Shown: one piece after another, positions 3,616 to 51,862 of the stretch
Position numbering within the stretch: the stretch's first letter is position 1
Layout of the letters: every line of letters starts with the position of its first letter
Source: Pyrinomonadaceae bacterium
GTDB lineage: Bacteria > Acidobacteriota > Blastocatellia > Pyrinomonadales > Pyrinomonadaceae
Assembly: GCA_030841085.1 (NCBI GenBank)
Contig: JAVEDP010000004.1
Location: 62,001-126,000 of the forward strand
Direction of reading: 5' to 3'
DNA length: 64,000 bases
Notes under the pieces: generated by a model
The model's database searches: none
What the model was told of the DNA's origin: nothing
Seen by the model: the letters and a program-made list of their open reading frames with translations, nothing else
Made by a program: the position numbers and the translations under genes

Positions 3616-3690
3616 ATCGTTGTGCTGACTAAGATCGGCTCGCTCAGGCGCATGTCTATTTACGATTTACCATTTACGATTTACTTCCTG

Positions 3691-34653: not shown

Positions 34654-34678
34654 TGGGAATCAGTGTAAATGAAGCGGG

Positions 34679-35155
34679 CTAGTCTGATAAATGCGGAGAC
34701 ACAAGCAGTCTTTCCTGATCCGAGGCCAGAAAGTCGCGGAGAATTAGAGCCGCCGCCTCGCTATCGATCTGCTTTCCGATGTCTTCGGCCCGGACACCGG
34801 CGGCGCGCAAGTTTCCCTCAGCCTCTGCCGATGAAAGCCGCTCGTCCTGCAGATACACAGGTAGCTTCAACGAGCGGGCAAACTTTGAAGCGGTTTCACG
34901 GGTCGCCAATGCAGCGTCTCCCGAAGAACCATTTAGTTTCAGCGGTAAACCAATTACCAGGGTTTTAGCGTCAAAGCGCAGTGCCAACTGTTCGACGTCG
35001 TGAAGCAATTGCTTCCAATTCGTCCGCTGAATGGCGTCGAGCCGATTAATTGAAATTGATAACGAGTCTGAGACAGCGACGCCGACCCGCTTGCTGCCGA
35101 GGTCGAGCGCCAGAACGGGAGCGCGAATCGGGTCTGTCACGTCGTTTTTCTTCAT
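34679..35155 (-). CDS. ruvX: Putative pre-16S rRNA nuclease / Holliday junction resolvase-like
   Basis: LALDLGSKRVGVAVSDS; LVIGLPLKLNGSSGD; YLQDERLSSAEAE. Confidence 0.9.
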   Translation of the reverse strand: MKKNDVTDPIRAPVLALDLGSKRVGVAVSDSLSISINRLDAIQRTNWKQLLHDVEQLALRFDAKTLVIGLPLKLNGSSGDAALATRETASKFARSLKLPVYLQDERLSSAEAEGNLRAAGVRAEDIGKQIDSEAAALILRDFLASDQERLLVSPHLSD

Positions 35156-35308
35156 GATGATTGCCGGCTTGAACGTGATCTCAAATTGATCGAATTACAC
35201 AGCCAGATATGGCAAAACCCAAGTTGCGCGCTTTAGCTGGCGGCCTGTATTATACGAAGTCACCAAGGCGCAGCCGCACCGCAGAATTGTTTAGACAAGA
35301 GGTACCTG

Positions 35309-36610
35309 ATGTCATTTCGCACTAAGTTTTCCCTAATTATCCTGTCATCGATGTTGGCTATTTATACCGTCGTTGGTGGCTGGATTTCCACTCGGGCCCA
35401 ACAGCCGGCCAACGATCCAAATGCCCAGCTGCGTATTTTCGAAAGCGTGCTTCAGCATATCCAGAATGATTATGTGGATGAGCCCAACATGGAAAAGGTT
35501 CGCGCGGGCGCCTTGCGCGGCCTGGCATACGGGCTGGATCCTTATTCGACTTATCTGACTCCCGATCAGGTTCGCCAGTATAACGAAAACGCGAACAGTA
35601 ACGCGGTTGGCATCGGCGCCGAGCTTTCGCAGGTCGCCTCTTATCTTTACGTAATCGCGCCGATGAAAGGCTCGCCGGCCGATCAGGTTGGTGTTCGCGC
35701 CGGCGACATCATTGAGTACATTGATGGTAAAGCCACTCGCGATATTTCGCTTTACGACGCGAAACAACTTCTGAATGGACCGGCAGGTTCGGAAGTGAAA
35801 CTTCGGATTCTGCGCGCCAACACACGCCCGCTCACGCTGACAGTCAAGCGCAGTTCGTTCCGCGCCCCGGCCGCCGAGGCGCATATGGAAGCAGGTCGTA
35901 TCGGTGTATTGCGCCTCAATAGTTTTGCTGAGGGCGAAGCGGCAGATGCGCGTGCTCGCTTGCAGGATTTGGTGAAGCAGGGCGCACAGAAAGTTGTTGT
36001 CGATCTGCGTGGGACGGCAGGCGGCTCGCTCGCCGAAGCCGTTACCGTCGCCAATCTATTTATCAAGGACGGCACACTGGCGCAGACTTCGGGTCGAGAG
36101 GGCAGAGCATTAAAAACGTTTAGCGCCGACAACAAGCTTGCGATTTTCTCGGGACCTGTCGTCGCGTTGATTGATGCGGGCACGGCGGGCGCCGCTGAAG
36201 TCGTGGCTTCGGCGTTTATCGATCGCAATCGCGGTCAGGTAGTCGGCGAAAAGAGTTTCGGCGCGGGCGCGGAGCAGCAACTGTACACTTTGCGCGGCGG
36301 AGACGGACTACTCTTGACTACGATCAAGTGGGCTTCTGCCAGCGGCAAACCTTTTCTCGGTGAGGATCGCGGTCATTCGGGCGTTGCTCCTTCAGTAGAA
36401 GTTAAGCGCCCCGAACTCGCCGACGCCGTTGACCCTGATGATTTGACCGGCAACGATGATGATCAGGTGACGAAGCCGGATCAACCGAATGAGAAGCAGG
36501 TCGCGCCGGAACCGCCGGCTGCGAAACCCGCTGTCGAAGACGTGCAAATGAAGAAGGCGCTGGAACTCCTCAGGGAAAACAAATCGGTGCAGTTGCAAAA
36601 AGCTGCCTGA
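35309..36610 (+). CDS. S41 C-terminal processing peptidase (CtpA-like) with PDZ domain
   Basis: IQNDYVDEPNMEKV; PDZ GSPADQVGVRAGDIIEYIDG; VVDLRGTAGGSLAEAVTVANLFI. Confidence 0.9.
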   Translation: MSFRTKFSLIILSSMLAIYTVVGGWISTRAQQPANDPNAQLRIFESVLQHIQNDYVDEPNMEKVRAGALRGLAYGLDPYSTYLTPDQVRQYNENANSNAVGIGAELSQVASYLYVIAPMKGSPADQVGVRAGDIIEYIDGKATRDISLYDAKQLLNGPAGSEVKLRILRANTRPLTLTVKRSSFRAPAAEAHMEAGRIGVLRLNSFAEGEAADARARLQDLVKQGAQKVVVDLRGTAGGSLAEAVTVANLFIKDGTLAQTSGREGRALKTFSADNKLAIFSGPVVALIDAGTAGAAEVVASAFIDRNRGQVVGEKSFGAGAEQQLYTLRGGDGLLLTTIKWASASGKPFLGEDRGHSGVAPSVEVKRPELADAVDPDDLTGNDDDQVTKPDQPNEKQVAPEPPAAKPAVEDVQMKKALELLRENKSVQLQKAA

Positions 36611-36636
36611 AGATCGCCGCCGATATTTATTAACAA

Positions 36637-36670
36637 AGGTCAGGGAACAATCCCTGGCCTTTGCTTTTTC
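36637..36670 (+). terminator. Rho-independent terminator after the S41 protease gene
   Basis: ggtcagggaacaatccctggcctttgctttttc stem-loop plus T-rich tract. Confidence 0.7.
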
Positions 36671-36950
36671 ACTTACTAATCCTCGGCGAAACGGACTGCG
36701 TTGGATATCGCATAGCTTGTAACTCCATATCGGGTAATCCGAATCAACGCAGGCAGCAATCAACTCGTCAGGTTCCGTTAACTGTTGAGTTTAGATTGTG
36801 AATACGTAATAAAACTGACTTTCCTTCTGCGATCCGCTCTGTTTCTGATTTAATACCCAATGCAGATGCGATGGTTGATTAATAGGAATAGCACTTGCTG
36901 CAACATCAGCCTTAGATGCTGCCTACACATTTGCGAAGGAGATAGAAACA

Positions 36951-37550
36951 ATGATTATGACTAATAAGTTGCTGCCCGTAGCCCTGGTCGCCGCCTTGAT
37001 TGGCGGTTCGGTTGGCGCTTTCGTAATGCACTCAAGAAACCAATCGACTACGGCCGACACAGCCACGACGCCGGCGTATTCGACTTCAACGAACGGCGAG
37101 ACGCAGTTTGCTCGTTATGAGCCGAACACTTCGGTAAACGATCCGTCAGTGCCCGCGCAGTTTGATACTACGCAGGAACGGACGGCTTATAAATCCGGTT
37201 TCGCTGATGGCTTCCGATCCTGCGAAGCCGGCGTTTCAGGAAATCAAGTATCGTCAAATGGCGTCCTTTATAGTCAGCCGCGAGTTGTCTACAGAAACAG
37301 TGGCCGCAGTACCGTCGCGCGCAGCTCAAGTAGTTCGCGTCGCGTTTACTACGACTATCAACGACCGCGCAGCCGCAGTTTTTGGCAGAAACATCGTGAC
37401 AAGCTGACGGTAGCAATGGGTACTGGCGGCGGCGCCCTCTTGGGCGGAATTATTGGTGGTAAAAAAGGTGCCGGCATTGGCGCGCTTGCAGGCGCCGGCG
37501 GTTCCGCTCTTTACACTTATAAGCTTCGGAATCGCAACCGACGCTACTAA
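36951..37550 (+). CDS. Glycine-zipper-like membrane protein
   Basis: GTGGGALLGGIIGGKKGAGIGALAGAGGSALYTY; N-terminal hydrophobic segment. Confidence 0.6.
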   Translation: MIMTNKLLPVALVAALIGGSVGAFVMHSRNQSTTADTATTPAYSTSTNGETQFARYEPNTSVNDPSVPAQFDTTQERTAYKSGFADGFRSCEAGVSGNQVSSNGVLYSQPRVVYRNSGRSTVARSSSSSRRVYYDYQRPRSRSFWQKHRDKLTVAMGTGGGALLGGIIGGKKGAGIGALAGAGGSALYTYKLRNRNRRY

Positions 37551-37579
37551 CGACGCTTACCGAGCAAGGCTTCGATAAT

Positions 37580-38524
37580 GTGGCGAACATGAGGGTAGTG
37601 CTCTCAATCGCGTTGAGCGTTCTGGCAGCAATCCCGTGGGCAGTCCCTGTTTCAGGGGCTGCCCATTTGTTTGCGGGCGAGCGCGCCACGCAACTGCTTC
37701 GCGCCTCGCCTCCGCCCCAACCAGCGCGCTTTCGCGTGGATGATGACCGCGGCCTTTTGATAAGCGTTTGGCTCAACGGACGCGGTCCGTATGTTTTTGT
37801 GATTGATACCGGCGCCGGTTTGAACGTGATCAGTGAACGGTTAGTTAATGCGGCAGGTCTTAGAACTGCCGAAACAAGCCAGACCCTGATTGGTGGACTG
37901 AGTGGCGTCACAACTTCTTCGAATCGCGAAGCCGCTCTCGACACGCTGGCACTTGGTTACCAAAACAATTTGTTGCCGCTGCGACAAAGCGCTTTGATCG
38001 TTAGCTATCTGCCCGCGGGTATAGAAGGGATTCTCGATCCAACCGTGGCGTTTGCTCCATACGGTTACTCGATCGATATGCCCAGCGGACGGATTGAGCC
38101 ACTCAATGATTCGACTGAGTTAAGTCATACTTCGCCGGCTGACGGCGCCACCGTTGAATGGCTGCGACGCGGCGATAGCGATCGGCCTTTCGTGAAACTC
38201 GGCGACGGCAGGCTCGCTTTAATCGACACCGGTTCTCGCTTTGGATTAGCGGTCAGCGACCGACAGGCGATAATCGTAAGCCGAGATAGAACGCGGCGCA
38301 CAATACCCAGCCTCGATTTGGGCGGCGGGACGATTAACGCGAGGCGCGTCGACCCGACTACCATAAGTATCGGTGAGCTGGTGCTCCGCGGCATTCCGAC
38401 AGACATCGTTTCCGGCGGCGCGGCCGACGCCCCGCTGATTTTAGGGCGAGACGCTTTGTATCCGTTTAAAATAAGTTTCTATCCGCGCAGGCGATTGATC
38501 GAGTTTGCCCCAATCGATCGATGA
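37580..38524 (+). CDS. Retropepsin-like aspartyl protease family protein
   Basis: FVIDTGAGLNVIS and LIDTGSRFGLAVS motifs. GTG 37580 or ATG 37589 start. Confidence 0.75.
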   Translation: MANMRVVLSIALSVLAAIPWAVPVSGAAHLFAGERATQLLRASPPPQPARFRVDDDRGLLISVWLNGRGPYVFVIDTGAGLNVISERLVNAAGLRTAETSQTLIGGLSGVTTSSNREAALDTLALGYQNNLLPLRQSALIVSYLPAGIEGILDPTVAFAPYGYSIDMPSGRIEPLNDSTELSHTSPADGATVEWLRRGDSDRPFVKLGDGRLALIDTGSRFGLAVSDRQAIIVSRDRTRRTIPSLDLGGGTINARRVDPTTISIGELVLRGIPTDIVSGGAADAPLILGRDALYPFKISFYPRRRLIEFAPIDR

Positions 38525-38564
38525 GGCATGACGACGCCCTGCGTTTTAATTTGAGCTTCGTAAA

Positions 38565-39701
38565 ATGACAGTCGTATTTCGCTTAATGGCCACTGCGCTG
38601 GCGCTCGTTATGTGCATCAGTGGTTTGCCTTTTGGACTGCGGTGGCTTGACACCGCTTTGCGGCGCGGCGGCTTGACGCCGCTTTTGGCCATCGCAAGCC
38701 ACGCCCAGGGACAACGACCGCGCGTTACTGTCCCGACCAAACCGCCGGCGCCACAAAAACCTGCAAGCGGTGATTCCGATGCCGACGCTGAAGTAGTGCG
38801 CGTCGAGACAGATCTCGTCAACACTCTATTCACAGCCGTCGATCAAAATCGCCACTTCGTCACGTCGCTGCGGTCCGAAGACGTGCGCATTTTTGAGAAT
38901 GACGTACCGCAAACCGTAAGCATGTTCCAACGCGAAACTGATCGGCCATTGTCGCTGGCGATTCTTATCGACACCAGCGAGTCACAAAGGGGCGTGATGG
39001 CCCAGGAAAAGCTGGCCGCGCGCGCGTTTGTTGAGTCGGTGATTCGGCCCAGCGTCGATCGTGCGGCAGTGCTTTCGTTCACCGGCATTCCCAAACTAGA
39101 GCAAGCGCTGACCGGCGATCCTGTCCGGCTGCGAGAGGGAATTGATCAAGTGCGCGTGGAATTGTCCGCGGAAAATGAGCGGCTGCTGGCGGCTGGCGAA
39201 GATCCGCTGCCGATTGAGCAAGACCCGAGCGGTTACACCAGTATTTGGGATGCACTGTGGCTCACCATTCAGGAACACCTGGTTAAAACTCCTGACAACA
39301 CGCGCCGCGCAATTATTCTCTTGTCGGACGGCGACGACACTGCCAGCCACAAGGATAAGCAGGAAGTGATCGACCTGGCTGTGAGGTCGGACGTCGTGAT
39401 CTATTCGATTGGAATTCGGGATGCAGATTTTCCCGAGGGAAAACTCGACGCCGGCGCTTTACGAAAAGTGTCTGATAAAACCGGAGGACGCACGTTCATT
39501 CCCGCGGGACCGGGCGACCTGACCCAGGCCTTTTCACAGATCGATCAGGAGCTTCGCTCGCAGTACTTGATTGCTTACTCACCGACGAATAAGAATCGCG
39601 ACGCAACATACCGGCGACTGCGCATCGAGATCATCAACCCCGAACTACGTAAACAAAAACTACAGTTGCTCTACCGCCAGGGCTATTACGCCAAGAAGTA
39701 G
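38565..39701 (+). CDS. VWA-domain protein (VWFA-related Acidobacterial family)
   Basis: ILIDTSESQRGVM; ILLSDGDDTASH; YLIAYSPTNKNRDATYRRLRIEI; N-terminus overlaps a repeat copy. Confidence 0.87.
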   Translation: MTVVFRLMATALALVMCISGLPFGLRWLDTALRRGGLTPLLAIASHAQGQRPRVTVPTKPPAPQKPASGDSDADAEVVRVETDLVNTLFTAVDQNRHFVTSLRSEDVRIFENDVPQTVSMFQRETDRPLSLAILIDTSESQRGVMAQEKLAARAFVESVIRPSVDRAAVLSFTGIPKLEQALTGDPVRLREGIDQVRVELSAENERLLAAGEDPLPIEQDPSGYTSIWDALWLTIQEHLVKTPDNTRRAIILLSDGDDTASHKDKQEVIDLAVRSDVVIYSIGIRDADFPEGKLDAGALRKVSDKTGGRTFIPAGPGDLTQAFSQIDQELRSQYLIAYSPTNKNRDATYRRLRIEIINPELRKQKLQLLYRQGYYAKK

Positions 39702-39851
39702 CGCTGACGTTGGCGGGATAATGTTCCTTTGGCGGTATTATCACGCAACGGGGCATATAATGCGCTTATTCCGTTATCCAGCAGCAGCGGGATAATATAT
39801 GGTTATGTTGCTTATTCTGTCGTACAACTCTCGCGAAGGGAAGTGAACCTC

Positions 39852-40220
39852 ATGCCGCGATTCGTCATCTACCCGAAGGAAGGCGACCGTCTTGAGTTGG
39901 AGTTCGAAAGGTTTGTGGTCAACGCTCAAAACCGCGAAATCGAACTCTACAACCAACATGGCGAACAATGTGGCGCGTTCGTGACGCGTGCCAACGCCGC
40001 TGTTGTTCCAACGGAACTGCGACCGACCCAACGGCTAGACATGCTGACGTTTACTGTTTACTTAGCAAACCATCATGACGAACCATTCTAAATCAACGGA
40101 ACGCATTTCGTTCGGCAGGATGATGGTTACGAATTTCGACTTAACGGCAACCGTCCTGTTCCCTCGGTTTACATTGACCCCATACAAATCGTAGGTCTAA
40201 CGTATGTGCAAACCAACTGA
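39852..40220 (+). pseudogene. Cassette A gene, unknown function, interrupted by in-frame TAA at 40089-40091
   Basis: MPRFVIYPKEGDRLELEFERF...HHDEPF*INGTHFVRQDDGYEFRLNGNRPVPSVYIDPIQIVGLTYVQTN*; frame stays open after the TAA for 42 codons. Confidence 0.6.
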
Positions 40221-40229
40221 ACGGACGCA

Positions 40230-40335
40230 ACATAACACATCGTTGGACGCGAGCGGCGGAAGCGTGTTTCGCATCATAGTTGGTCCGGCGACGCTTGATT
40301 GAATTCGCGCCGCCGCGTCAACTCAAACGTTGGGC
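40230..40335 (+). other. attC site 1 (type A)
   Basis: acataac...cgttggacgcgagcggcgg...ccgccgcgtcaactcaaacgttgggc; 106 bp. Confidence 0.88.
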
Positions 40336-40369
40336 GGCTTCACTTGCCGATGATGGAAAGGACCTAACG

Positions 40370-40678
40370 ATGCCCTGGTACGAAATTGGCGCTAGTCGCG
40401 ATCAACCCGAGCGCGGTAAAGACCGTCTGATTCGCATGACTCAAACGATCTGGGAATCGAGCGGCAAATCCGATGGCTTCGCATTGTTGGGTGCGCACAC
40501 AACATCCGACGGAAAATTTGACGTTTGTTACCTGACGCCTGCTTGCCAAGATCCAATAAATGGAAGCGGCGGCGGTTATTTCACTTTTTGGCAAGTCATC
40601 CCCATTGACAAAAAACCTCCCCGAGAGTCACTAGAGGTTCTTGTCGGAGATCCTAAAGCGTTGGCCTTGCTTGACTGA
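40370..40678 (+). CDS. Cassette B protein, unknown
   Basis: ATG 40370 with ggaaagga upstream; MPWYEIGASRDQPERGKDRLIRM..., 102 aa. Confidence 0.7.
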   Translation: MPWYEIGASRDQPERGKDRLIRMTQTIWESSGKSDGFALLGAHTTSDGKFDVCYLTPACQDPINGSGGGYFTFWQVIPIDKKPPRESLEVLVGDPKALALLD

Positions 40679-40689
40679 TTGACCGCGCC

Positions 40690-40795
40690 GCCCAACAAAT
40701 CGTTGGACGCGAGCGGCGGTAGCGTGTTTCGCATCATGACTGGTCCGGCGATGCGTTCGTGAATTCGCGCCGCCGCGTCAACTCAGACGTTAGAT
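40690..40795 (+). other. attC site 2 (type A)
   Basis: gcccaacaaatcgttggacgcgagcggcgg...cgccgccgcgtcaactcagacgttagat; 106 bp. Confidence 0.9.
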
Positions 40796-40875
40796 TGCTT
40801 TGGGTCCTATCAGGATTGAAGAAATGGGTCTTTATTCGATCATACTAGACTACTCTCTTATGGAGGCTCTAGACC

Positions 40876-41256
40876 ATGCCACCTAAATTGCTATCCCGAT
40901 ATAAAAGAATTGTTGCGAGTAGCACGCTCACCGCATTTTTGCTCGTTTATTCGAGTGCCATAGGTACAATAAATTATTTCAAATTAAGAAACATAGATCC
41001 TCCTGTGGCGGAGCAACAGAGTGAGTCCTTAGCTAGAAAGTTACTGGAAGAGCTAAGCACACACCCACCAGCCAGCGAAGAGGAGAACCGCATTTTTGCG
41101 GCGAAACTTGGCGTGATTGATCTTCGTCCGATCGCGCCTTGCTATGATTTGCGAGAAGCCGCTAAGCGAGAGTTTGACCGATATTACCGTAACTCAACGC
41201 CTGAAAACATAGAACAACTCAAGTCAATTCTCGGTTCGATAGTTAGGGACTGCTAG
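40876..41256 (+). CDS. Cassette C protein, N-terminally membrane-anchored, unknown
   Basis: MPPKLLSRYKRIVASSTLTAFLLVYSSAIG..., 126 aa. Confidence 0.7.
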   Translation: MPPKLLSRYKRIVASSTLTAFLLVYSSAIGTINYFKLRNIDPPVAEQQSESLARKLLEELSTHPPASEEENRIFAAKLGVIDLRPIAPCYDLREAAKREFDRYYRNSTPENIEQLKSILGSIVRDC

Positions 41257-41314
41257 TAATGTCGTTGCTCTATTTTCGTCGGTTCCGTCGGTTCTATAGT
41301 GTCACCAGAGCGCA

Positions 41315-41422
41315 ATCTAACAAGTCTTGCAGCTGACGGCGCGGTAGCATGCTCTTCAAGTAACCTTATTCCAGCGGGCTTGAATCCTGATCGCGCGCCG
41401 CAGCTGAAGGCCAGCGTTATGC
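41315..41422 (+). other. attC site 3 (type B)
   Basis: atctaacaagtcttgcagctgacggcgcgg...cgcgcgccgcagctgaaggccagcgttatgc; 108 bp. Confidence 0.88.
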
Positions 41423-41460
41423 GGCGGGAGTCTCTCGATGACCGCCACTTGAGCACGACA

Positions 41461-41988
41461 ATGAAAGACGATTTTCAAATCTTGGCTTGGATAGCCACCG
41501 TTGTCGCCGCGGTCTTCGCGATTTTCCAATGGCGTAAGAATCTTCGATGGAAACAAGCTGAAATGGCTAAGACTTGTTTGGACGAAATCTGGAACGACCG
41601 TTTTGCTTTTGCTGCACTCAAAATGCTCGACTGGACGGGCTTGTCCTTTCCGTTACCGGACGATGGCGGCAACACGCCTCAGATATCGCACGAACAACGT
41701 CGTGCTTCTCTACGCGTCGCTAATACTGAGTTTCCTGCCGGCGATCCGGGCCCGTTTATTCGCGACGCCTATGATCGTTTGTTTGACGGCTTCGAACGGC
41801 TCGAGCATTTCATTCGCATCAAACTAATTCGATTCGAAGATGTGGAGCCTCGGCTTAGATATTATGTTGGCAAACTTGGTACGGCTGATGAACGCCCGGT
41901 GGCCGAAATATTTCTCAGCGCGTATGACTTCAAACTGGCGTTGTCCTTTCTCGAACGATTTGCATCTTGGAACCCGGACGCCGCATAA
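41461..41988 (+). CDS. Cassette D protein, single-TM, unknown
   Basis: MKDDFQILAWIATVVAAVFAIFQWRKNLRWKQAEMAKTCLDEIWND..., 175 aa; TAA overlaps attC4 R''. Confidence 0.72.
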   Translation: MKDDFQILAWIATVVAAVFAIFQWRKNLRWKQAEMAKTCLDEIWNDRFAFAALKMLDWTGLSFPLPDDGGNTPQISHEQRRASLRVANTEFPAGDPGPFIRDAYDRLFDGFERLEHFIRIKLIRFEDVEPRLRYYVGKLGTADERPVAEIFLSAYDFKLALSFLERFASWNPDAA

Positions 41989-42088
41989 CAAATCGTTGGA
42001 CGGGAGCGGCGGGAGCGTCTTTCGCAACTAACTTGGTGCGGCGGAGGGCGCTTTGATTCGCGCCGCCGCGTCAACTCAACCGTTCGGT
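41983..42088 (+). other. attC site 4 (type A)
   Basis: gcataacaaatcgttggacgggagcggcgg...ccgccgcgtcaactcaaccgttcggt; 106 bp. Confidence 0.9.
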
Positions 42089-42115
42089 GCTTTACTGTAA
42101 CTCAGAGGAGATCAA

Positions 42116-42754
42116 ATGCGACACCTTTTCCTTGCCGGTCTCGTCATGCTTCAGGTTCTTTTAGCTGACTCAACCCTGGCCCAGTCGCCAACGCGCGCTG
42201 TAACGGAAGCCGGGCAAAGAGTGCTCCTATTTCCAGACGGGTCATGGAAACCGGACGTCAGTAAACCACCGAAGGCATCCCCGGTCGGTAAGTCACCTAA
42301 GCCGGGACGGATAACCCTCCTAGCCCGGGCGAAGTACAAAGACTATGAGAAGGCGACCTTTAGCTTCGAGCATGGAGTTCGGGATGATCCAAAACTTGAG
42401 CTCACCCTGAACGATTGGGATCTCGAGTACGGGAATGGCGGCGACGCGCTCGGAGTCACAATGGTTACCGACGATCGTAGTCGAATCAAGGATCTCGGCA
42501 CCCTGAGATGGTCCGATATCAGGAAGATTCCGGAGCTGCCGGCGCATCCCGTGCCCACACGGGAGCCCGTCGTGCCTGCCGTCGTGGGGCATATGTATCT
42601 GGTTCATACGCGTGATTCGAATTCCGACTTCTACGCACTCTTTCGCGTCGAGGAGCTCGTTCACGGCGACAGCTGCACGATCACGTGGAAGATCGTACCG
42701 AATCCCGAGCCTGACAGCGCGCCGAACAAAGCCTTGCAACTGACGGCGCGATAG
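42116..42754 (+). CDS. Cassette E secreted protein, C-terminus read from attC5
   Basis: Signal peptide MRHLFLAGLVMLQVLLADSTLAQ; ends ...PNKALQLTAR* inside attC5. Confidence 0.72.
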   Translation: MRHLFLAGLVMLQVLLADSTLAQSPTRAVTEAGQRVLLFPDGSWKPDVSKPPKASPVGKSPKPGRITLLARAKYKDYEKATFSFEHGVRDDPKLELTLNDWDLEYGNGGDALGVTMVTDDRSRIKDLGTLRWSDIRKIPELPAHPVPTREPVVPAVVGHMYLVHTRDSNSDFYALFRVEELVHGDSCTITWKIVPNPEPDSAPNKALQLTAR

Positions 42755-42827
42755 CATGTTTCCCAAGTAACCTTGCTCCTTCACTTGAATACTGATCGCG
42801 CGCTGCAGCTGAATGCCAGCGTTCGGC
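42721..42827 (+). other. attC site 5 (type B)
   Basis: gccgaacaaagccttgcaactgacggcgcg...cgcgcgctgcagctgaatgccagcgttcggc; 107 bp. Confidence 0.88.
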
Positions 42828-42869
42828 GCTTCGTTTCTACTTGCGGGCGATTTGATAAGGAATCAGAAG

Positions 42870-43418
42870 ATGGCCAGATTGATTTCGTTAGCGCTGGCGT
42901 TGCTGATAACGAACACTCCAATCGTGAGTTCCCATTGGCATGCCTACGGTTTTCAGAATAGCGCCGAGGTCATCCAGGACGACGCAGAGCATCCGGGCAT
43001 CGAACTAATGCTTACTCCTCTCGATTGGAGTCGCCAAGCCAACCAGTATGTTCGCAAAGAGAAGTTCAGGGTCGGGGAGAGAGTGCTCATTCAGGTTTCT
43101 GTGATCACGACCGAGCCAAGAGAGGCCTCGTTAACAAGTACCTTTAAACAACATCGGCCGAGGCTAATGAAGGATGGTCATTTAGTGCCACATCGACCAG
43201 GGTCGCCCACATGGGGCCAAGTTGATTGCATTCTGACCCGCGTAATCTTTGTTGGCATTCCAGCCAATCAACCAACACAATTGGCTTCTTTCAATATGGC
43301 TGATTGGTACCGGCCGCTTGAGCCCGGTGAGTATCAGCTTACTCTTTGGGTACGTTTACTTAGCTGTTCGGGGCCGTTGTACAAATCTCACTCGTTAACA
43401 TTTGAAGTGACCAAGTAG
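42870..43418 (+). CDS. Cassette F secreted protein, unknown
   Basis: MARLISLALALLITNTPIVSS signal peptide; 182 aa. Confidence 0.72.
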   Translation: MARLISLALALLITNTPIVSSHWHAYGFQNSAEVIQDDAEHPGIELMLTPLDWSRQANQYVRKEKFRVGERVLIQVSVITTEPREASLTSTFKQHRPRLMKDGHLVPHRPGSPTWGQVDCILTRVIFVGIPANQPTQLASFNMADWYRPLEPGEYQLTLWVRLLSCSGPLYKSHSLTFEVTK

Positions 43419-43432
43419 TTCATGACCACGCT

Positions 43433-43536
43433 GCCGAACAATCGTTGGACGCGAGCGGCGGAGCGTGTTTCGCAAGATAATTGGTCTGGCGATGCTTGAA
43501 TGAAATCGCGCCGCCGCGTCAACTCAGGCGTTCGAC
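43433..43536 (+). other. attC site 6 (type A)
   Basis: gccgaacaatcgttggacgcgagcggcgg...cgccgccgcgtcaactcaggcgttcgac; 104 bp. Confidence 0.9.
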
Positions 43537-43552
43537 GGCTTATTTTTGTAAG

Positions 43553-44086
43553 ATGAAGTTAACAAAATTTATAATTGCTTGTTTCTGCTTACTTGTTATC
43601 GGTGGCGATGCGCTTGGACAAACAACCGAGAGCTCTGTTTCTGAGCTTCAGCGTGTTGCAAAAGTTCTCGAAAAGTCCGCGACCGTTTTAGGCTATAAAA
43701 CCGTAAGAGGTTTTCGTCCTACGGACGAATGGGAAACAGAAGAAAAGAAAGTCTTGCTTGAAAACCATGCATATTACACTTTGTTCGGCGAAGATTCAGA
43801 CGGTTCGTGCCTTAGGACCAACGGACGCATCGGCGTAACAATCTTAATCTTCAAGAATGATGAATTAGCTCGTCGGCAAGTTGATGAAATGAAAAAGGAT
43901 CATTCAGGTAATATTGGGTTTAAGGTTACAAAGTCCGACGAAACAGGCTATCTCCTTGAAGAAGTCAACGGCTTTTATGCTGCCGTTATCCAAGACACAA
44001 AAGTTATTTTCTTTGAAGATAGAAGTCGCGCTCAAGCCGACAATATAAAATCGCTGGTTGAGTCGCTTGCGAAAGAAGCGCGTTAA
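43553..44086 (+). CDS. Cassette G secreted protein, unknown
   Basis: MKLTKFIIACFCLLVIGGDALGQ signal peptide; 177 aa. Confidence 0.72.
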   Translation: MKLTKFIIACFCLLVIGGDALGQTTESSVSELQRVAKVLEKSATVLGYKTVRGFRPTDEWETEEKKVLLENHAYYTLFGEDSDGSCLRTNGRIGVTILIFKNDELARRQVDEMKKDHSGNIGFKVTKSDETGYLLEEVNGFYAAVIQDTKVIFFEDRSRAQADNIKSLVESLAKEAR

Positions 44087-44098
44087 ATGTTACGCGCG

Positions 44099-44200
44099 AT
44101 CGAACAAATCGTTGGACGCGAGCGGCGGGAGCGTTTTCTCAACTAGCTTGGGGCGGCGAAGGGTGCTTTGATTCGCGCCGCGTCAACTCAATCGTTCGGC
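44099..44200 (+). other. attC site 7 (type A, 3-bp deletion in L' side)
   Basis: atcgaacaaatcgttggacgcgagcggcgg...cgcgccgcgtcaactcaatcgttcggc; 102 bp. Confidence 0.88.
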
Positions 44201-44230
44201 ATCTTATTGTTTTCAAATTCGAGAATAAAA

Positions 44231-44668
44231 ATGCACATCGTTTTTCTTGCCTCGGTACTTCTCAGCCACAGTATTATTCCGGCAAGTGTGAATACGTGGT
44301 TTCCTCAGTCAACATCCCTTGATAAATCTTGTCAGATTCGCAAAATATACATTGCTGAGTTTGACGAGTCAGCTGCTTCGCTGAATTTTCGACGGCGGCT
44401 GGGGAAGCGGCTCTCGAAGAAATTCGTCATTATGGCAAAGCCTGATGAGGCTGATGCAATACTGACCGGAGAATTTTCTGCACTTTCTGGTTCGGGTTAT
44501 AGTTATGTAACGTTCGAGCATGCTGAACTAAAAACTGCTAATGGACAGCTAGTTTGGCATGGTGACTTTGATCTTAAGCTCAGCAACAGCTTGTGGGGTC
44601 TCGGGAATGGTCATATCGGAAATGCCGCAATGCGCATTGCTAAAGACATACTAAACGCTTGTAAGTGA
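44231..44668 (+). CDS. Cassette H secreted protein, unknown
   Basis: MHIVFLASVLLSHSIIPASVNTW; 145 aa. Confidence 0.7.
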   Translation: MHIVFLASVLLSHSIIPASVNTWFPQSTSLDKSCQIRKIYIAEFDESAASLNFRRRLGKRLSKKFVIMAKPDEADAILTGEFSALSGSGYSYVTFEHAELKTANGQLVWHGDFDLKLSNSLWGLGNGHIGNAAMRIAKDILNACK

Positions 44669-44718
44669 TGCTCCCCTGTAAAAAGCAGAATCAATGTAGC
44701 TCTATACCTACCGGCGAT

Positions 44719-44865
44719 GCCGAACAAATAGTTGGACGCGAGCGGCGGAGGCGTGTTTCGCAACTTGATTCGTTGGACGCGAGCCGCGGGGAGGTGTTTC
44801 GCATCATAATTGGTCCGGCGCTGCTTGATTGAATTCGTGCCGCCGCGTCAACTCAGACGTTGGGC
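44719..44865 (+). other. attC site 8, hybrid with duplicated 5' half (type A)
   Basis: gccgaacaaatagttggacgcgagcggcgg...gtttcgcaacttg then a second cgttggacgcgagccgcgg...gtcaactcagacgttgggc; 147 bp. Confidence 0.82.
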
Positions 44866-44873
44866 ATCTTCTC

Positions 44874-45224
44874 ATGACTATAGTGAAGCAAGTTCTCGGG
44901 CATCACGTTACCTTCGGCGGTGAACGGCATTCTGGTTGGCTACCCCAAGGTGCCGCAATGCCTAAGCCTACGCCGACCAATGAAGTCGCTCTCAACATCA
45001 CGATTGAATCCGACGGCGCGGGCTATCTTTTGTGTTGGGTTTCATCGGACCGCACAGTCGCCGGTGATTTTGGTATCAAACGTTGGCGGACGCCGAACGG
45101 GCGGGCGCTCAAGACTTCGGCATCGCTGCCGACCAATGGCAAACTCTCGCCTGAGTCGCTCGCTTCAACGGCGATGCCCAACAAATCGTTGGACGCGAGC
45201 GGCGGGGGCGTGTTTCGTAACTAG
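44874..45224 (+). CDS. Cassette I protein, C-terminus read from attC9
   Basis: MTIVKQVLGHHVTF...; ends ...MPNKSLDASGGGVFRN* inside attC9. Alternative ATG at 44958. Confidence 0.6.
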   Translation: MTIVKQVLGHHVTFGGERHSGWLPQGAAMPKPTPTNEVALNITIESDGAGYLLCWVSSDRTVAGDFGIKRWRTPNGRALKTSASLPTNGKLSPESLASTAMPNKSLDASGGGVFRN

Positions 45225-45281
45225 CTTGGTGCGGCGCAGAGTGCTTTGATTCGCGCCGTCGCATCAGCCCAAACGTTCGAC
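45176..45281 (+). other. attC site 9 (type A)
   Basis: gcccaacaaatcgttggacgcgagcggcgg...cgccgtcgcatcagcccaaacgttcgac; 106 bp. Confidence 0.88.
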
Positions 45282-45323
45282 CGGCTTTTTAACGTTTCAG
45301 CTTGTAAACCAGGAGACACTCAC

Positions 45324-45800
45324 ATGAAGAAAACAATTTTCCTCGTACTGGTGATCTTGTCATCAACGATGGTCGTACCGCCTTATCGGCATTATGCCTC
45401 GGCACCTCCACCACCTTCAGTTTCCGGCCTCTGGGATTTCACACTCAACGTCAATCGGATGGTTGGAAGGGACGGTTTCGTTAGAAAACAGCTACGCACC
45501 TTCGAGTGGGTAATTCGGCTAAAACAGGAAGGTGGCAAGGTGACGGGTGATCTCGCTGGTGGCCGTGGCTCACGGGGCGAAAGCGTCTGTGCCGACGCTG
45601 ATGTCCGGGGCTCACTAAATGGCTCACGTATCGAGTTCGTGGTTTCGTATCAAGGGGCCTGTTGCAGCCAAGAACAAGAAAAATTTGTCGGTGAAATCGA
45701 CGACGAAGGTCGCAGAATTACCGGAAAACTTGAACCCGTCGATGTCCCGCGAACATCTTGTGATCTAGCATACGCTGACGTAACCGCCACCAAACGGTGA
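45324..45800 (+). CDS. Cassette J secreted protein, unknown
   Basis: MKKTIFLVLVILSSTMVV signal; 158 aa. Confidence 0.7.
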   Translation: MKKTIFLVLVILSSTMVVPPYRHYASAPPPPSVSGLWDFTLNVNRMVGRDGFVRKQLRTFEWVIRLKQEGGKVTGDLAGGRGSRGESVCADADVRGSLNGSRIEFVVSYQGACCSQEQEKFVGEIDDEGRRITGKLEPVDVPRTSCDLAYADVTATKR

Positions 45801-45804
45801 CGCC

Positions 45805-45904
45805 GTCGAACAATTCGATGGACGCGAGTAAAACCAGCGGGCTTGTCATAGACAACTTGGCCGTGACGCATTTGTCTCCCGCCGCGTCAACTCAAACGTT
45901 GGAT
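45805..45904 (+). other. attC site 10 (diverged type A)
   Basis: gtcgaacaattcgatggacgcgagtaaaaccagcggg...cccgccgcgtcaactcaaacgttggat; 100 bp. Confidence 0.82.
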
Positions 45905-45922
45905 GGCCTAAGGAGTAATCGT

Positions 45923-46432
45923 ATGAGTCTCGAAGGGATTTTCATCAATGGCGTTTATCCTGGAGTCCTCAGTGACATCTACCGTGTCCATAGTCTCGTC
46001 CCGGATCAAATACTTTACCTCCAACCATTTTCTGGACAGCGCATCGTAGAACTATCTGACAATCGCCCATCAGCGGATGCGTCTGTCAGATTGTTTCTGT
46101 CGTTAACCGATGACCTCCCTACAGTCCGGTATTCGTGTGAGATTGTGGGTTGGAATGATAAACGTGAGCTTACAGGCCGCAAGCGCGAAATAATCGACAC
46201 TGTCATCCGGTCGTTCCAGCCCACCGAAGAGGGGGTGTATGCAGTCGCTCGCGGTATTGAATGCGTCAATCTTCTTTCTGTTTGGCGGATGCGTGAATTA
46301 TCGAAACCGTTTTCAGTCGCTGAGTTGCGCAAAGCTGTCGACGATCAGCCCGTTTCGACCAAGCGACAAACTGCAGGCGGGTGGGTGTATGTGAAGTATC
46401 CGACTCAGGAGTGGCTGGAATCTCGCTTCTAG
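45923..46432 (+). CDS. Cassette K protein, unknown
   Basis: RBS-like aaggagt; MSLEGIFINGVYPGVLSDIYRVHSLV..., 169 aa. Confidence 0.72.
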   Translation: MSLEGIFINGVYPGVLSDIYRVHSLVPDQILYLQPFSGQRIVELSDNRPSADASVRLFLSLTDDLPTVRYSCEIVGWNDKRELTGRKREIIDTVIRSFQPTEEGVYAVARGIECVNLLSVWRMRELSKPFSVAELRKAVDDQPVSTKRQTAGGWVYVKYPTQEWLESRF

Positions 46433-46454
46433 GAGTCCTTTCTGTATGCCGGCC

Positions 46455-46561
46455 ACCCAACAAAGCCTTGCGACTGACGGCGCGATAGCATGCTTCTCAA
46501 GTAACTTCTTTCCTTCAGCTTGAATGCTGATCGCGCGCCGCAGCTGAAGGCAATCATTATG
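46455..46561 (+). other. attC site 11 (type B, degenerate R')
   Basis: acccaacaaagccttgcgactgacggcgcg...cgcgcgccgcagctgaaggcaatcattatg; R' is ATTATG rather than GTTATG. Confidence 0.8.
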
Positions 46562-46918
46562 TCAACTAAACCACAAACCATAGACGAATACCTTGCCCGG
46601 ATAAGTAGTGATAAACGGGCGGCGCTTGAGAAGCTCCGCAGGGCCATCAAAGCCGCGGCGCCAAAAGCTGAAGAGTGCATTAGCTACCAGATGCCCAGCT
46701 TCCGTCTTAACGGCAGAATGCTCGTGTCCTTTGCCGCTTGGGCAAATCATTGCGCCTTCTATCCCGGCAGTTTCCCGTTAGAGATCCACAAGAAAGAACT
46801 CAAGAAGTACGACACCAGCAAGGGCACGCTCCGTTTTCCAATAGACTCTCCTTTGCCGGCCACGCTCGTACGCAAGTTGGTAAAGGCTCGGATCGAACAG
46901 AACAGTGCTAAACAATGA
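46559..46918 (+). CDS. DUF1801-family protein
   Basis: MSTKPQTIDEYLARISSDKRAALEKLRRAIKAAAPKAEECISYQMPSFRLNGRMLVSFAAWANHCAFYP; ATG overlaps attC11 R'. Confidence 0.8.
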   Translation: MSTKPQTIDEYLARISSDKRAALEKLRRAIKAAAPKAEECISYQMPSFRLNGRMLVSFAAWANHCAFYPGSFPLEIHKKELKKYDTSKGTLRFPIDSPLPATLVRKLVKARIEQNSAKQ

Positions 46919-46926
46919 GGGACAAG

Positions 46927-47031
46927 ATGATGAAACTCTTTGGCGTCACATTTATGCTAGTCGTCGTTGGGTCGACTCGCGAGCGAAAAGCGCAACGGCA
47001 AGACGCAAGAAGTTCAGAGTTCAAGCTTTAG
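46927..47031 (+). pseudogene. Truncated signal-peptide-like ORF running into a fold-back repeat
   Basis: MMKLFGVTFMLVVVGSTRERKAQRQDARSSEFKL* ends inside the repeat starting at ~47010. Confidence 0.35.
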
Positions 47032-47079
47032 CTTGCGTGGTCCCAGCGCAACCGCAACCTGAGGGTTGAACTCTGAACT
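47010..47079. repeat. Fold-back repeat
   Basis: agttcagagttcaa ... ttgaactctgaact. Confidence 0.7.
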
Positions 47080-47134
47080 GCTTTAGTTGTACTTGTCAGT
47101 TCAATTAACAAAACAAAAATCGGAAGGAAGATAC

Positions 47135-47626
47135 ATGCAAAAAATTACGCCATTCCTGTGGTTCGACAACAACGCCGAAGAGGCAGTGAATTTTTACGTC
47201 TCTACTTTTAAGAATTCCAAGGTCGGGAACACTACGCGATACAATGAGGCAAGCGCCAAAGCTGCCGGAAGACCGGAAGGTTCGCTGATGACCGCCGAGT
47301 TTCAACTCGAAGGACAGAACTTCGTAGCAATAAACGGGGGGCCGCATTTCAAATTTACCGAAGCCATATCCTTCGTCGTCGACTGCGAGACGCAGGAAGA
47401 GGTCGATTACTTTTGGGACAAGCTGACTGCCGATGGTGGGCAAGAGTCGCAGTGTGGCTGGCTTAAAGACAAGTACGGTTTGTCATGGCAGATAACTCCA
47501 AGGGTTTTGATCGAGATGATTGGAGATAAAGATCCGCAGAAAGCGCAGAGGGTCATGGAGGCCATGCTACAAATGAAAAAGATCGATATTGCAACTCTAA
47601 AGCAAGCTTATGAGGCGAATGATTAA
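47135..47626 (+). CDS. VOC/PhnB-like (3-demethylubiquinone methyltransferase-type) protein
   Basis: MQKITPFLWFDNNAEEAVNFYVSTFKNSKVG; CGWLKDKYGLSWQITP. Confidence 0.88.
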   Translation: MQKITPFLWFDNNAEEAVNFYVSTFKNSKVGNTTRYNEASAKAAGRPEGSLMTAEFQLEGQNFVAINGGPHFKFTEAISFVVDCETQEEVDYFWDKLTADGGQESQCGWLKDKYGLSWQITPRVLIEMIGDKDPQKAQRVMEAMLQMKKIDIATLKQAYEAND

Positions 47627-47848
47627 GCGCCCTGTCTTTGCGAAATGATGTGTTGGGACCACCAAGAGCGGGGGCAAGCCCCCGCTCTTTCGTGGACGGC
47701 CGCTCGCCTATACAGGACCGCGGCTGAAGGATATAGTCTTCGCTGAATTGAGTCTCGCTCACTTTCTTTTCAGTGTCTCGGAATCCATCGAGTCATCTGA
47801 GGTTCACAGCCTGCCGACCAACCGTTCGCTCGCGTTTTAGGAGTCCAA

Positions 47849-48649
47849 ATGACAAATCGCAGAAACCTTCGCGTCTTAAGTCTCTGTCTGCTCGTTGCTT
47901 TTCTGTTGCTGGCGATCGTGCCAAAGCAAATCTTAGTCGCTCAGGAGCAACGAAGAAAATTCACGCCGGGCGAGATGGTGGAAACGGGCGGGGGTATAAG
48001 CGCGAAAATTTTGCGATGCCGCGGCGCTGGCGAAAACGAGGAGTGTGAAGTCCAATACTATCGAGGCGACGATCTGGAAAGTACACCCAGATGGGAGAAC
48101 ACTTCTTTCCTGCGAACCGCGGAAGAGCGCGTGCTCAACGGAAAGAAACGCCAGGCGGGACAGCCCGAAAACGCAGGCGCCGAAACAGCCAGGCCACAAC
48201 CGCTGCCTCCTGCTGAAGAAAACAAAACCGACAACAACGTCCAGCCAGGAGACTGCTCTTTTACTCCTCCTCCCGCTGATACTTCAAAAACCGCCAGGGC
48301 TTCGGAACAGCTTTTCAAACGCAAGATTTATGACGCCTACCATCTCAGTGTGGACGGCACGAACTCCGCGCCGTTGAAACTGGGAGTGACATTTCTAAGC
48401 TTCCTAGTGAGCAAACCGTTCACAAATATTGTGCGAGTTGATCCGGCAGTGGGCGCTTACCGCATTAATGACGCAGCTCCGGTCAATGCGATAATTTATC
48501 CGGTCAAGAGCGAGCACATTGTCTGCGAGCAGTATCGCGACCGAACATTGCGGAAACGCGTCGCTAACAAATACGCATGTTTCAAAAATAGAGATGGCGA
48601 ATGGGTATGCGGAGCGGACGGCATGCCTAAGATTACGCAGTTGAATTAA
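47849..48649 (+). CDS. Hypothetical secreted protein
   Basis: 266 aa with N-terminal signal (LRVLSLCLLVAFLLLAIVPKQILVAQ). Confidence 0.65.
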   Translation: MTNRRNLRVLSLCLLVAFLLLAIVPKQILVAQEQRRKFTPGEMVETGGGISAKILRCRGAGENEECEVQYYRGDDLESTPRWENTSFLRTAEERVLNGKKRQAGQPENAGAETARPQPLPPAEENKTDNNVQPGDCSFTPPPADTSKTARASEQLFKRKIYDAYHLSVDGTNSAPLKLGVTFLSFLVSKPFTNIVRVDPAVGAYRINDAAPVNAIIYPVKSEHIVCEQYRDRTLRKRVANKYACFKNRDGEWVCGADGMPKITQLN

Positions 48650-48700
48650 GAGTGATAAGGAATTTCGAGGTGTAGCTTCATCCCAAGTTCTGCGGATGCT

Positions 48701-48903
48701 GGTTCGGCTTTGCCGCCTGATGTGCGGCGGTGGCTATGCCCCGCCGACAGCCGACAGATTGGTTCCGGGCTATGCCCTTGGTCCAGGCGTGGCCCTTCGA
48801 ATTTATTGGACAAAGGCCGGATAAGGGCATAGCCCAAAAACGTGAAAGGGCTCTCTACGGCGGGGCATAGCCACCGCCGCACATCAGACGGCAGAGCCGA
48901 ACC
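48701..48903. repeat. Large fold-back repeat with ~45-nt arms
   Basis: ggttcggctttgccgcctgatgtgcggcggtggctatgccccgcc ... ggcggggcatagccaccgccgcacatcagacggcagagccgaacc. Confidence 0.88.
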
Positions 48904-48947
48904 GGACATGGCCCCTCTTCGGGCAAGGTTCTCGACGTGCTAGGCGC

Positions 48948-50276
48948 ATGGAGATTTCAAAGCAACGAAAGAAATTACTTTTCATCATCGCTCTCCCATT
49001 GGCTTTTCTGTTCCGGCTGGCGTTTGGTTTGTGCCTGGACTTCTGGACGCAAGTTGAAGACGAGAAGCAGATCTATTTAATTGGTCTGAAGTTTTTTACC
49101 ACCGGCGCGTGGCCTTATTTTGGGCCGGACGTTACCAACACCATTCAAGTGCCCGGAGCTCTGCAGGGCCTGGTTGTTGGCCTCCCGTTTTATGTGCTGC
49201 CGGTACCAGAAGCGCCTTACATCTTTGTAAACATTCTCTCGTTTGCCAGTCTCTGTTTCTTTGCCTGGTACTGCACGCGGCGGCTGCCGGAAATTCCAAA
49301 ATGGTTCGTTTGGTCATGGTTGCTCACCGCGCCGTGGACGCTGAACATTTCCACCCAGATTTACAACCCTTCATACGTTTTACCCGCGGCGATTTTGTTT
49401 TTCGTCTGCGCCATTGAAACTTATCCGTTCCTCAGTCGCGGCCTGGTTCCTTTGAAGTGGGCCAACTTTGCGATGGGCCTGTCGCTTTTCTGGGTTATGC
49501 AATTTCACCTGTCATGGGTGATTCTTCTTCCTTACATTCTCCTGTCGTTTTATTTTCAACTTAGGACCTCGGGTTGGAAGGCTCTTAAAGGAGTGATGTA
49601 TTTTGGCGTCGGCGCCATACCAACCGGCAGTTTTCTTATTCCAACTTTTGTTAAGTACGGACTGAGCGGAGCATTGGGAAATACGAATGAGGCTGTGCAG
49701 TTTAATTACACCAACCTTCTAAAGGCTGCGAACGTTGTGGAAGGTGTCTTGGGACGTTTCTTGTCTTTCGCCAGCTTTGAGTTGCCGCGTTTCATCGGTG
49801 GCAACACCGCGAAACGTTTGCTCTTCATGCGCGAAAATCCCTGGCTGATTCCTTTCGTCGTCTTTCTTACAGTGGTTGGGATTCTTCAACCGATAGCCTT
49901 GTTGGTCCTGTGGTTCAAAAAAAGGCACTCAGTGAAAGACTGGAAGGCGATGAAGTATTTCACGCTCGCGACTGTAGTGTTGCTGTATGTCAGCTTTTTG
50001 TTCGCGATCAGGACTCCGCTGTCCCACACTTTTTACACCACACTTCCAATCGCCATGCTATATAGCTTCTATTGTTGGAACGAGTTTCTGAAGAAACGGA
50101 GTTGGCAGAAGTTTGCGCTGGTGTTCATTATTTGCGGCATCATTTTTAATATCGGGCTGGCGATGAACAACTATTCGCGTGTGTCCATCTATCTCGAGCG
50201 CAGCAAAGTTGTGGAAGCGATCAAGGCCCGAGACTATCGCATCGTGGGTGAAAGACGCCCCGGATCTAGATATTGA
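48948..50276 (+). CDS. Polytopic membrane protein (glycosyltransferase-like)
   Basis: 442 aa, many TM segments; N-terminal acidic loop before conserved-looking aromatic region. Confidence 0.6.
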   Translation: MEISKQRKKLLFIIALPLAFLFRLAFGLCLDFWTQVEDEKQIYLIGLKFFTTGAWPYFGPDVTNTIQVPGALQGLVVGLPFYVLPVPEAPYIFVNILSFASLCFFAWYCTRRLPEIPKWFVWSWLLTAPWTLNISTQIYNPSYVLPAAILFFVCAIETYPFLSRGLVPLKWANFAMGLSLFWVMQFHLSWVILLPYILLSFYFQLRTSGWKALKGVMYFGVGAIPTGSFLIPTFVKYGLSGALGNTNEAVQFNYTNLLKAANVVEGVLGRFLSFASFELPRFIGGNTAKRLLFMRENPWLIPFVVFLTVVGILQPIALLVLWFKKRHSVKDWKAMKYFTLATVVLLYVSFLFAIRTPLSHTFYTTLPIAMLYSFYCWNEFLKKRSWQKFALVFIICGIIFNIGLAMNNYSRVSIYLERSKVVEAIKARDYRIVGERRPGSRY

Positions 50277-50290
50277 ATTGAGTGGAGTTT

Positions 50291-51862
50291 CTACAACGGA
50301 ATGTTACCGTGCTTCTTCGGCGGGTTTGTGTCGCGTTTGTTTTCAAGCAGTGAAAGTGCACGGATGAGTTTCGGTCTGGTCAATGCCGGTTCGATTACTT
50401 CATCAACAAAGCCTCGTTCGGCAGCGACGTATGGATTCGCAAACTTATCTTCCAACTCAATAACGCGCGAGCGGCGTGCCGTTTCCTTGTCCTTCGCTTC
50501 ACTAATTTCCCGCCGGTACAAAACACCGACAGCGCCTTCAGCGCCCATCACCGCGATCTCGGCGGACGGCCAGGCAAAGTTAACGTCAGTGCGAATGTGT
50601 TTTGACGCCATCACGCAATAGGCCCCGCCATAAGCTTTCCTGGTTATCACTGTCAGCTTCGGCACCGTCGCTTCGGCAAACGCATACAGCAGCTTCGCGC
50701 CGTGACGAATGATGCCGCCGTGCTCCTGCGAAATGCCGGGTAAAAAACCAGGCACATCTTCAAAGACAATCAACGGCACGTTGAAGCAATCGCAGAAACG
50801 CACGAAGCGCGCTCCTTTGACCGAAGCGTCGATGTCCAAAACTCCGGCCAGAAATGCCGGCTGGTTAGCAACAATTCCCACCGGCCGCCCATCGAGCCGC
50901 GCAAAGCCGACGCAGATGTTCGGAGCGTGATGCTGCTGAACCTCAAAAAAGTAACCGTCATCAACCACTGCCGCAATCACTTCGCGAATGTCGTAAGGTT
51001 GATTTGACGCTTCCGGAACGATCGTGTTGAGCTTCTCTTCGGTCCTGTCGGGCGAATCGGTCGGCACTACTCGCGGAGCGTCGTCAAGATTATTTGAAGG
51101 AATGAACGACAGCAGCTCGCGAACCATTTGCAGAGCATGCTCGTCTGAATCTGCGGCGAAGTGCGCGACGCCCGAGATGCGGTTATGAGTCATAGCGCCG
51201 CCGAGTTCTTCTTTGGTCACGTCCTGGTGCGTCACTGTCTTAATAACGTCGGGACCCGTAATGAACATGTACGACGTGTCTTTCACCATGATGTTAAAGT
51301 CGGTGATTGCCGGACTGTAAACCGCGCCGCCGGCGCATGGTCCAAGAATGCAACTGATCTGCGGCACGACGCCGCTCGCCAGCGTGTTGCGCAAAAAGAT
51401 GTCGGCATAGCCGCCGAGACTGACAACGCCTTCCTGAATGCGCGCTCCGCCGGAATCATTCAGCCCAATAATCGGCGCGCCCACCTTCATCGCCAGGTCC
51501 ATCACTTTGCAAATCTTTTCCGCATGCGTTTCGGAAAGGGAACCACCAAAGACTGTGAAGTCCTGCGCAAAAACAAAAACCTTACGGCCATCGATCAATC
51601 CGTGACCGGTGACCACGCCATCGCCGGGATATAGTTGCTGTTCCATGGCAAAATCTTTCGAGCGATGGACCACCAATTTATCGAACTCTTCAAAACTTCC
51701 ATCATCAAGCAGGAACTCGATGCGCTCACGCGCAGTCAGCTTGTTTGCGGCGTGCTGTTTGTCAACGCGCTCAGCGCCACCGCCGGTTTCCGCCTTCAGC
51801 GAACGCTCTTTAAGTAGCTGGAGTTTGGACTTGGATTGTTTGGGTTGTTGTTTGGAAGTCAT
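50291..51862 (-). CDS. Acyl-CoA (propionyl-CoA-type) carboxylase beta subunit
   Basis: [69 protein letters not shown]. Confidence 0.93.

Follow-up and report, generated by a model that had tools for sequence, protein, structure and literature searches.

Homologous gene cassettes with unlike attC bodies around a two-family attC array in Pyrinomonadaceae

A cassette array in which two types of attC recombination site are interleaved raises the question of whether the attC type records where each cassette came from. Such an array lies in a 64,000 nt stretch (contig JAVEDP010000004.1, positions 62,001 to 126,000; here termed the window) of the chromosome of a soil bacterium of the Pyrinomonadaceae (Acidobacteriota), whose genome is coded G000 in our comparisons. 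On the + strand at 40230-46562, the array comprises eleven attC sites that read A A B A B A A A A A B from left to right, giving eight type A and three type B sites. An earlier note, made from the sequence alone, had attributed the mixture to cassettes from two source arrays or lineages, on the premise that sedentary integrons are usually homogeneous in attC. The premise is right as a generality (PMC8352920), and mixed clades were already known in Vibrio (PMC1382264). Our analysis makes it probable that the array is a cluster of attC sites lacking integrases (CALIN) with two homologous, distinct attC families, that cassettes have had their attC bodies replaced right of R'', and that the mixture represents two resident families as much as imports.

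Cassettes were paired across genomes only by nucleotide homology reaching R'', since pairing of proteins by the longest upstream open reading frame (ORF) gave false pairs; the match of window site 1 to locus L148 of G014, for example, was a flanking chromosomal gene. Contig ends of G006 with 110-123 nt in common were left out as assembly branch points. On three G006 contigs (L119, L120 and L123) the last ~110 nt of a cassette before the attC are shared but are followed by different A sites, which may be strain variation, a repeat or further attC exchange.

Approximately 12 cross-genome cassette families were found, and in about eight of them the attC bodies were no more alike than random pairs from the same two genomes. 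Discordant cassettes were 71-98 % identical up to R'', with the 8 nt before AAC mostly in agreement, whilst attC identity of the ranked discordant pairs, set against every attC pair between the two genomes, fell between the 5th and the 81st percentile. Cassettes of AA26 and RYN_26 were 98.0 % identical over 714 nt at an attC identity of 0.66, one of the two clearest cases, and those of G000, AA24 and AA26 were 94.8-95.5 % identical over ~691 nt (attC 0.66-0.76). The other clear case, a cassette carrying a B site in G012 and an A site in G029, was 87.6 % identical over 676 nt (attC 0.62), with identity collapsing directly after GCGTCTAACAAA. Within the window, cassette 6 shared 85.8 % nucleotide identity over 260 nt, up to CGAACAAAT, with a cassette of G033, after which the attC sites were 0.56 identical. 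G033 represents another genus and its homologue carries that host's type C attC, as opposed to the A site in the window; the gene was found only in G000 and G033 among 118 genomes of the family. The remaining discordant pairs were G005 and G014 (89.4 % over 160 nt, attC 0.67), G012 and G014 (83.7 % over 504 nt, attC 0.57), G000 and G011 (72.6 % over 296 nt, attC 0.54), G002 and G009 (81 % over 116 nt, attC 0.57), and G006 and MAG42 (71.2 % over 146 nt, attC 0.53). Concordant controls, with attC identities of 0.84 (AA24 and AA26), 0.81 (G012 and G016) and 0.81 (G000 and G016), indicate that the method is able to detect linkage of gene and attC.

As judged from these alignments, the attC body right of R'' is shown not to be stably linked to its cassette, of which the 5' R' end, the gene and R'' are kept. 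The discordant families thus make the attC family no reliable guide to the origin of a gene, and the use of attC type as a tag of cassette source, as had been proposed, did not hold up: cassettes that share their R'' and are up to 98 % identical differ between genomes in the attC body, window cassette 6 included. That A and B cassettes were imported whole from two lineages, gene and attC together, with attC type as a faithful tag of origin, is unlikely. Hosts with A only and with B only do exist alongside the mixed G000, and about one-third of homologous families keep the same attC, but most have unrelated attC bodies, and A and B cassettes of the host genome do not differ in GC (p = 0.33). 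Equal GC and the random interleaving of the two types, with no difference in clustering, favour our reading, as do the bimodality of sites within G000 and the uneven spread over hosts. Barring errors of assembly, the discordant pairs refute import of whole cassettes as a general rule. Misassembly would require a common word of assembler length, whereas the alternative forms share only a few bases past R''.

Several observations weigh against exchange of the attC body as we read it. The concordant third of families implies that attC and gene travel together for a time. The genomes are metagenome-assembled genomes (MAGs) and the sample is only ~12 families; breakpoints are resolved to ~6 nt, AACAA(A) being common to all types, and the common AACAAC of AA26 and RYN_26 may shift theirs slightly rightward. 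The family of G000, AA24 and AA26 is the least clean, in that its R'' ends match less and its attC sites have A-like arms, and loop divergence could explain part of its discordance. A reading in which attC bodies track their hosts is weakened because the partner genome often also has a similar site and because some hosts are mixed. The fused site 8 described below represents one event, A onto A and not A to B, and the order of steps, transfer followed by replacement in the new host, is one that we infer only.

Ordinary IntI recombination at R' cannot alter a cassette's own attC body. As to how the body right of R'' was replaced, we infer that a transferred cassette would acquire one from the host array via recombination or deletion between neighbouring attC sites, which are direct repeats. 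With a junction near R'' of two neighbouring sites, the first gene and its R'' would be joined to the second body and the gene between them lost. A junction in the conserved AACAA(A) beside R'' would produce a clean swap, and one inside the loop a fusion or a hairpin whose arms no longer pair. L'' and L' would stay pairable only where the junction falls left of L'', and such products would be the ones to survive. The breakpoint would thus be expected beside R'' whichever enzyme were responsible, because AACAA(A) is common to all types and a pairable stem is needed. An A/B mixture formed in this way would owe as much to two attC families residing in the host as to imported cassettes.

Site 8 of the window array plausibly represents the scar of such a replacement event. 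Here one A site, cut off within its loop so that R'', the spacer and L'' remain, is joined to another A site without R''. The fused site has two L'' arms at a distance of 41 nt but a single L' arm. Its junction, around TTGATTCG/TTGGACG, joins 41 nt of the one A site to the other via a few common bases and lies inside the loop. No other fusion of this kind was found among the loci compared.

Two other routes to discordant cassettes were weighed. The integron integrase may cut at R'' (AA^C) and not at R', swapping everything right of R'', for example by way of the folded top strand or a double-stranded reaction. This is a serious alternative because replacement of attC by attI pieces at R'' is known in mobile integrons of classes 1 and 2 (PMC12901181), and the breakpoints here do adjoin R''. 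We nevertheless hold it to be rather improbable, as no integrase was detected in G000, the same breakpoint is predicted without special chemistry if pairable stems are selected for, and the junction of site 8 is in the loop. It is very unlikely that the same chromosomal gene was packaged repeatedly and received the attC family of the respective host on each occasion. That cassettes arise with a host-typical attC is discussed as an open possibility (PMC8352920), but the inspected pairs share the 5' GTT end and 8-10 nt of R'', where independent packagings should differ.

The ends of the cassettes indicate that the array is built of true cassette units. In the window, the 5' R' of a cassette is complementary to its own 3' R'' at 60 of 70 positions, where 38 would be expected (p = 2e-5 by permutation). 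Across the 41 junctions of the whole genome, 5.66 of 7 positions are complementary compared with 3.36 expected, the highest of 20,000 permutations reaching 4.07. By border type, the genome-wide values (of 7) are 5.5 for A-B, 6.6 for B-A and 5.4 for A-A. Cassette ends therefore pair as excised circles require, and do so at A/B borders as well as at A-A borders. An integrase able to act on both A and B sites presumably operated here, since the two share the same architecture, stand in one array and have proper cassette ends.

G000 contains ~47 detected attC sites on five contigs, of which 27 are strict A and 15 strict B. Its 98.9 %-complete assembly yielded no TIGR02249 match above cut-off for the integron integrase, although IntI is present in several congeners, and the arrays were therefore classed as CALIN (at least two clustered attC sites, no integrase); the combination of intI and attI beside an array that defines a complete integron was not found in G000. 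Repeated TTATCC/GGATAA motifs are present at the left end of the window array (39715-39802), similar to ones upstream of intI in G019 (L116), and are possibly an attI remnant. In contig C28 of G043 (L166), IntI (3404-4342, +) and the attC sites downstream of it at 8167 (+) and 9487 (+) lie on the same strand, unlike the usual divergent layout, and the integrase is perhaps inverted.

In alignments, both attC types display the order R''-spacer-L''-loop-L'-spacer-R' with L'' and L' imperfectly palindromic, and two bases of the L'' arm, a G and an A, are left unpaired (A, GTTG-G-ACGCG-A-GCGGCG; B, CCTT-G-CAGCTG-A-CGGCGCG). Single-strand folds gave the two-bulge stem in most sites, with sites 4 and 9 folding poorly. 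Homology between A and B is indicated by 60 % identity, compared with 46 % for shuffled sites, and by a loop motif common to both. Within the host genome, identity was 0.76 for A-A, 0.84 for B-B and 0.60 for A-B (maximum 0.68), and 0 of 529 sites from relatives were at least 72 % identical to both. More than half of those 529 sites belong to other families, some of them mosaic, that are intermediate between A and B. On this sequence evidence, A and B each form a discrete group within a larger attC family that is diversifying. The claim of two distinct families or lineages in the earlier note is thereby upheld; a continuum of intermediates, which it had named as evidence to the contrary, is absent from the host genome but partly present in the relatives. 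We give hardly any credence to A and B being one drifting family cut into arbitrary classes, which their homology and the in-between and mosaic sites of relatives might suggest, given the clear bimodality in G000 and the lack of sites close to both. Hybrids with the 5' arm of one family and the 3' arm of another were sought, with one weak case only. The order of A and B in the host genome is no less interleaved than random (20 boundaries, 16.3 expected).

When attC sites of related genomes were clustered, A and B favoured different hosts, as the earlier note had envisaged for two lineages. A sites dominate in AA24 (A/B counts 15/0), G029 (6/0), AA26 (33/1) and UBA11740 (17/1), B sites in G014 (0/20), G012 (2/22) and MAG42 (1/5), whilst G000 (27/15) and G006 (7/21) are mixed. 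The distribution is uneven (chi-square p = 9e-21), although the test overstates independence because the genomes are related. Individual MAGs under the labels Planctomycetota, Bacteroidota, Chloroflexi and Terriglobia have strong A sites as well. The chromosomal locus orthologous to window 34000-50430 in the congener G014 (L148, contig C9) has the same flanks and array orientation, and contains B and other attC sites without A.

The features of the array are listed in the table below. Both consensus sequences were present as the earlier note gave them, and its assignment of sites to A (1, 2, 4, 6-10) and B (3, 5, 11) was right. The array does occupy its span of 40690-46561, but that start omits site 1 and the cassette ending there (39803-40329); with this leftmost cassette, the array extends over ~39.8-46.56 kb. 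Covariance models built from the window sites recovered both families on other contigs of the host genome (E 1e-20 to 1e-33), so the window sites are not due to chance. A free search for attC stems alone lacked specificity when used by itself, with many matches in shuffled sequence.

Cassettes and attC sites of the window array (site coordinates run from R'' to R'; R1 and R2 are covariance models)
Feature	Coordinates	Strand	Remarks
Cassette 0, array left end	39803-40329	+	ORF 39852-40091, no Pfam match
attC site 1, type A	40230-40335	+	R2 model 124 bits; R'' ACATAAC, R' GTTGGGC
Cassette 1, ends in site 2	40330-40789	+	ORF 40370-40678, no Pfam match; ends GTTGGGCGGC / GCCGCCCAAC
attC site 2, type A	40690-40795	+	R2 124 bits
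Cassette 2, B site after A site	40790-41416	+	ORF 40876-41256, no Pfam match; ends GTTAGATTGC / GCAATCTAAC, 10-nt run
attC site 3, type B	41315-41422	+	R1 model 124 bits
Cassette 3, A site after B site	41417-42082	+	ORF 41461-41988, no Pfam match; 11-nt complementary ends
attC site 4, type A	41983-42088	+	R2 121 bits
Cassette 4	42083-42821	+	ORF 42116-42754 runs into own B site, no Pfam match
attC site 5, type B	42721-42827	+	R1 122 bits
Cassette 5	42822-43530	+	ORF 42870-43418
attC site 6, type A	43433-43536	+	R2 114 bits
Cassette 6	43531-44194	+	ORF 43553-44086; G033 homologue with type C attC
attC site 7, type A	44099-44200	+	R2 105 bits
Cassette 7	44195-44859	+	ORF 44231-44668, no Pfam match; 10-nt complementary ends
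attC site 8, type A, fused	44719-44865	+	Two L'' arms, one L' arm
Cassette 8	44860-45275	+	ORF 44874-45224 runs into A site
attC site 9, type A, weakened L'	45176-45281	+	R2 117 bits
Cassette 9	45276-45898	+	ORF 45324-45800, no Pfam match
attC site 10, aberrant A-like	45805-45904	+	R2 41 bits
Cassette 10	45899-46556	+	ORF 45923-46432, no Pfam match
attC site 11, type B, array end	46455-46562	+	R1 130 bits

The 5' end of cassette 0, GTTATGTTGC (39802-39811), matches GCAACATAAC at 40227-40236 exactly in reverse complement, as read directly. Of the attC consensus (R'' RYYYAAC, R' GTTRRRY), AAC and GTT are present at 10 of 11 sites, with outer bases degenerate at several (CGAAC, GTTCG). The exception is site 11, whose degenerate R' (CATTATG) reads ATT where GTT is expected. 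For site 10, identity to the closest other A site of the window reaches only 69 %. The ORFs of cassettes 4 and 8 that read into their attC sites encode C-termini ending ...NKALQLTAR (B) and ...NKSLDASGGGVFRN (A), respectively, and C-termini of this kind in predicted proteins may point to attC sites. Elsewhere in the window, a near-perfect inverted repeat with 46-nt arms (96 % complementary, 111 nt apart) is located at 48701-48903, and an imperfect palindrome (GTTCAGAGTTCAA/TTGAACTCTGAAC) that is not an attC at 47007-47083, 3' of a DUF1801 gene.

The array resembles other CALIN in its 11 attC sites bounding cassettes and the lack of a detected intI in the genome, but two attC families are present in comparable numbers where the textbook sedentary array is near-homogeneous. 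Vibrio chromosomal integrons likewise have species-biased attC (59-be) families and mixed clades (PMC1382264); there, mixed clades were read as cassette transfer and gene conversion was proposed by Boucher et al. (2006) as a homogenizing force on attC sites, whereas here one and the same cassette is seen to carry unlike attC bodies. Delta-attI-type cassettes of class 1 and 2 integrons (Partridge 2009; PMC12901181), for which recombination of the attI1 L box with R'' was proposed, also retain gene and R'' and have the attC body replaced from R'' on, although by an attI piece and not, as in these sedentary arrays, by another attC family. Taxon-specific attC covariance models (Ghaly et al. 2021; PMC8352920) follow the same approach and reveal attC families structured by host, but they were used to assign cassette origin, a use that the discordant pairs limit in this clade. 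Among the open-access papers searched, none was seen to describe one cassette bearing different attC bodies in sedentary integrons; subscription literature lay outside the search, and priority is not established.

These results bear on why sedentary integrons keep host-typical attC sites while importing genes, and on how cassettes gain attC, questions for which homologous cassettes with unrelated attC bodies are direct test cases. They also caution that attC families alone are unsafe for tracing the origin of cassettes, resistance cassettes included. It is possible, if doubtful, that attC replacement at R'' is a regular integron reaction that re-equips incoming cassettes with the host attC, through the integrase at R'' or hairpin-driven deletion between neighbouring sites; if true, such replacement would keep sedentary integrons homogeneous despite constant gene import.

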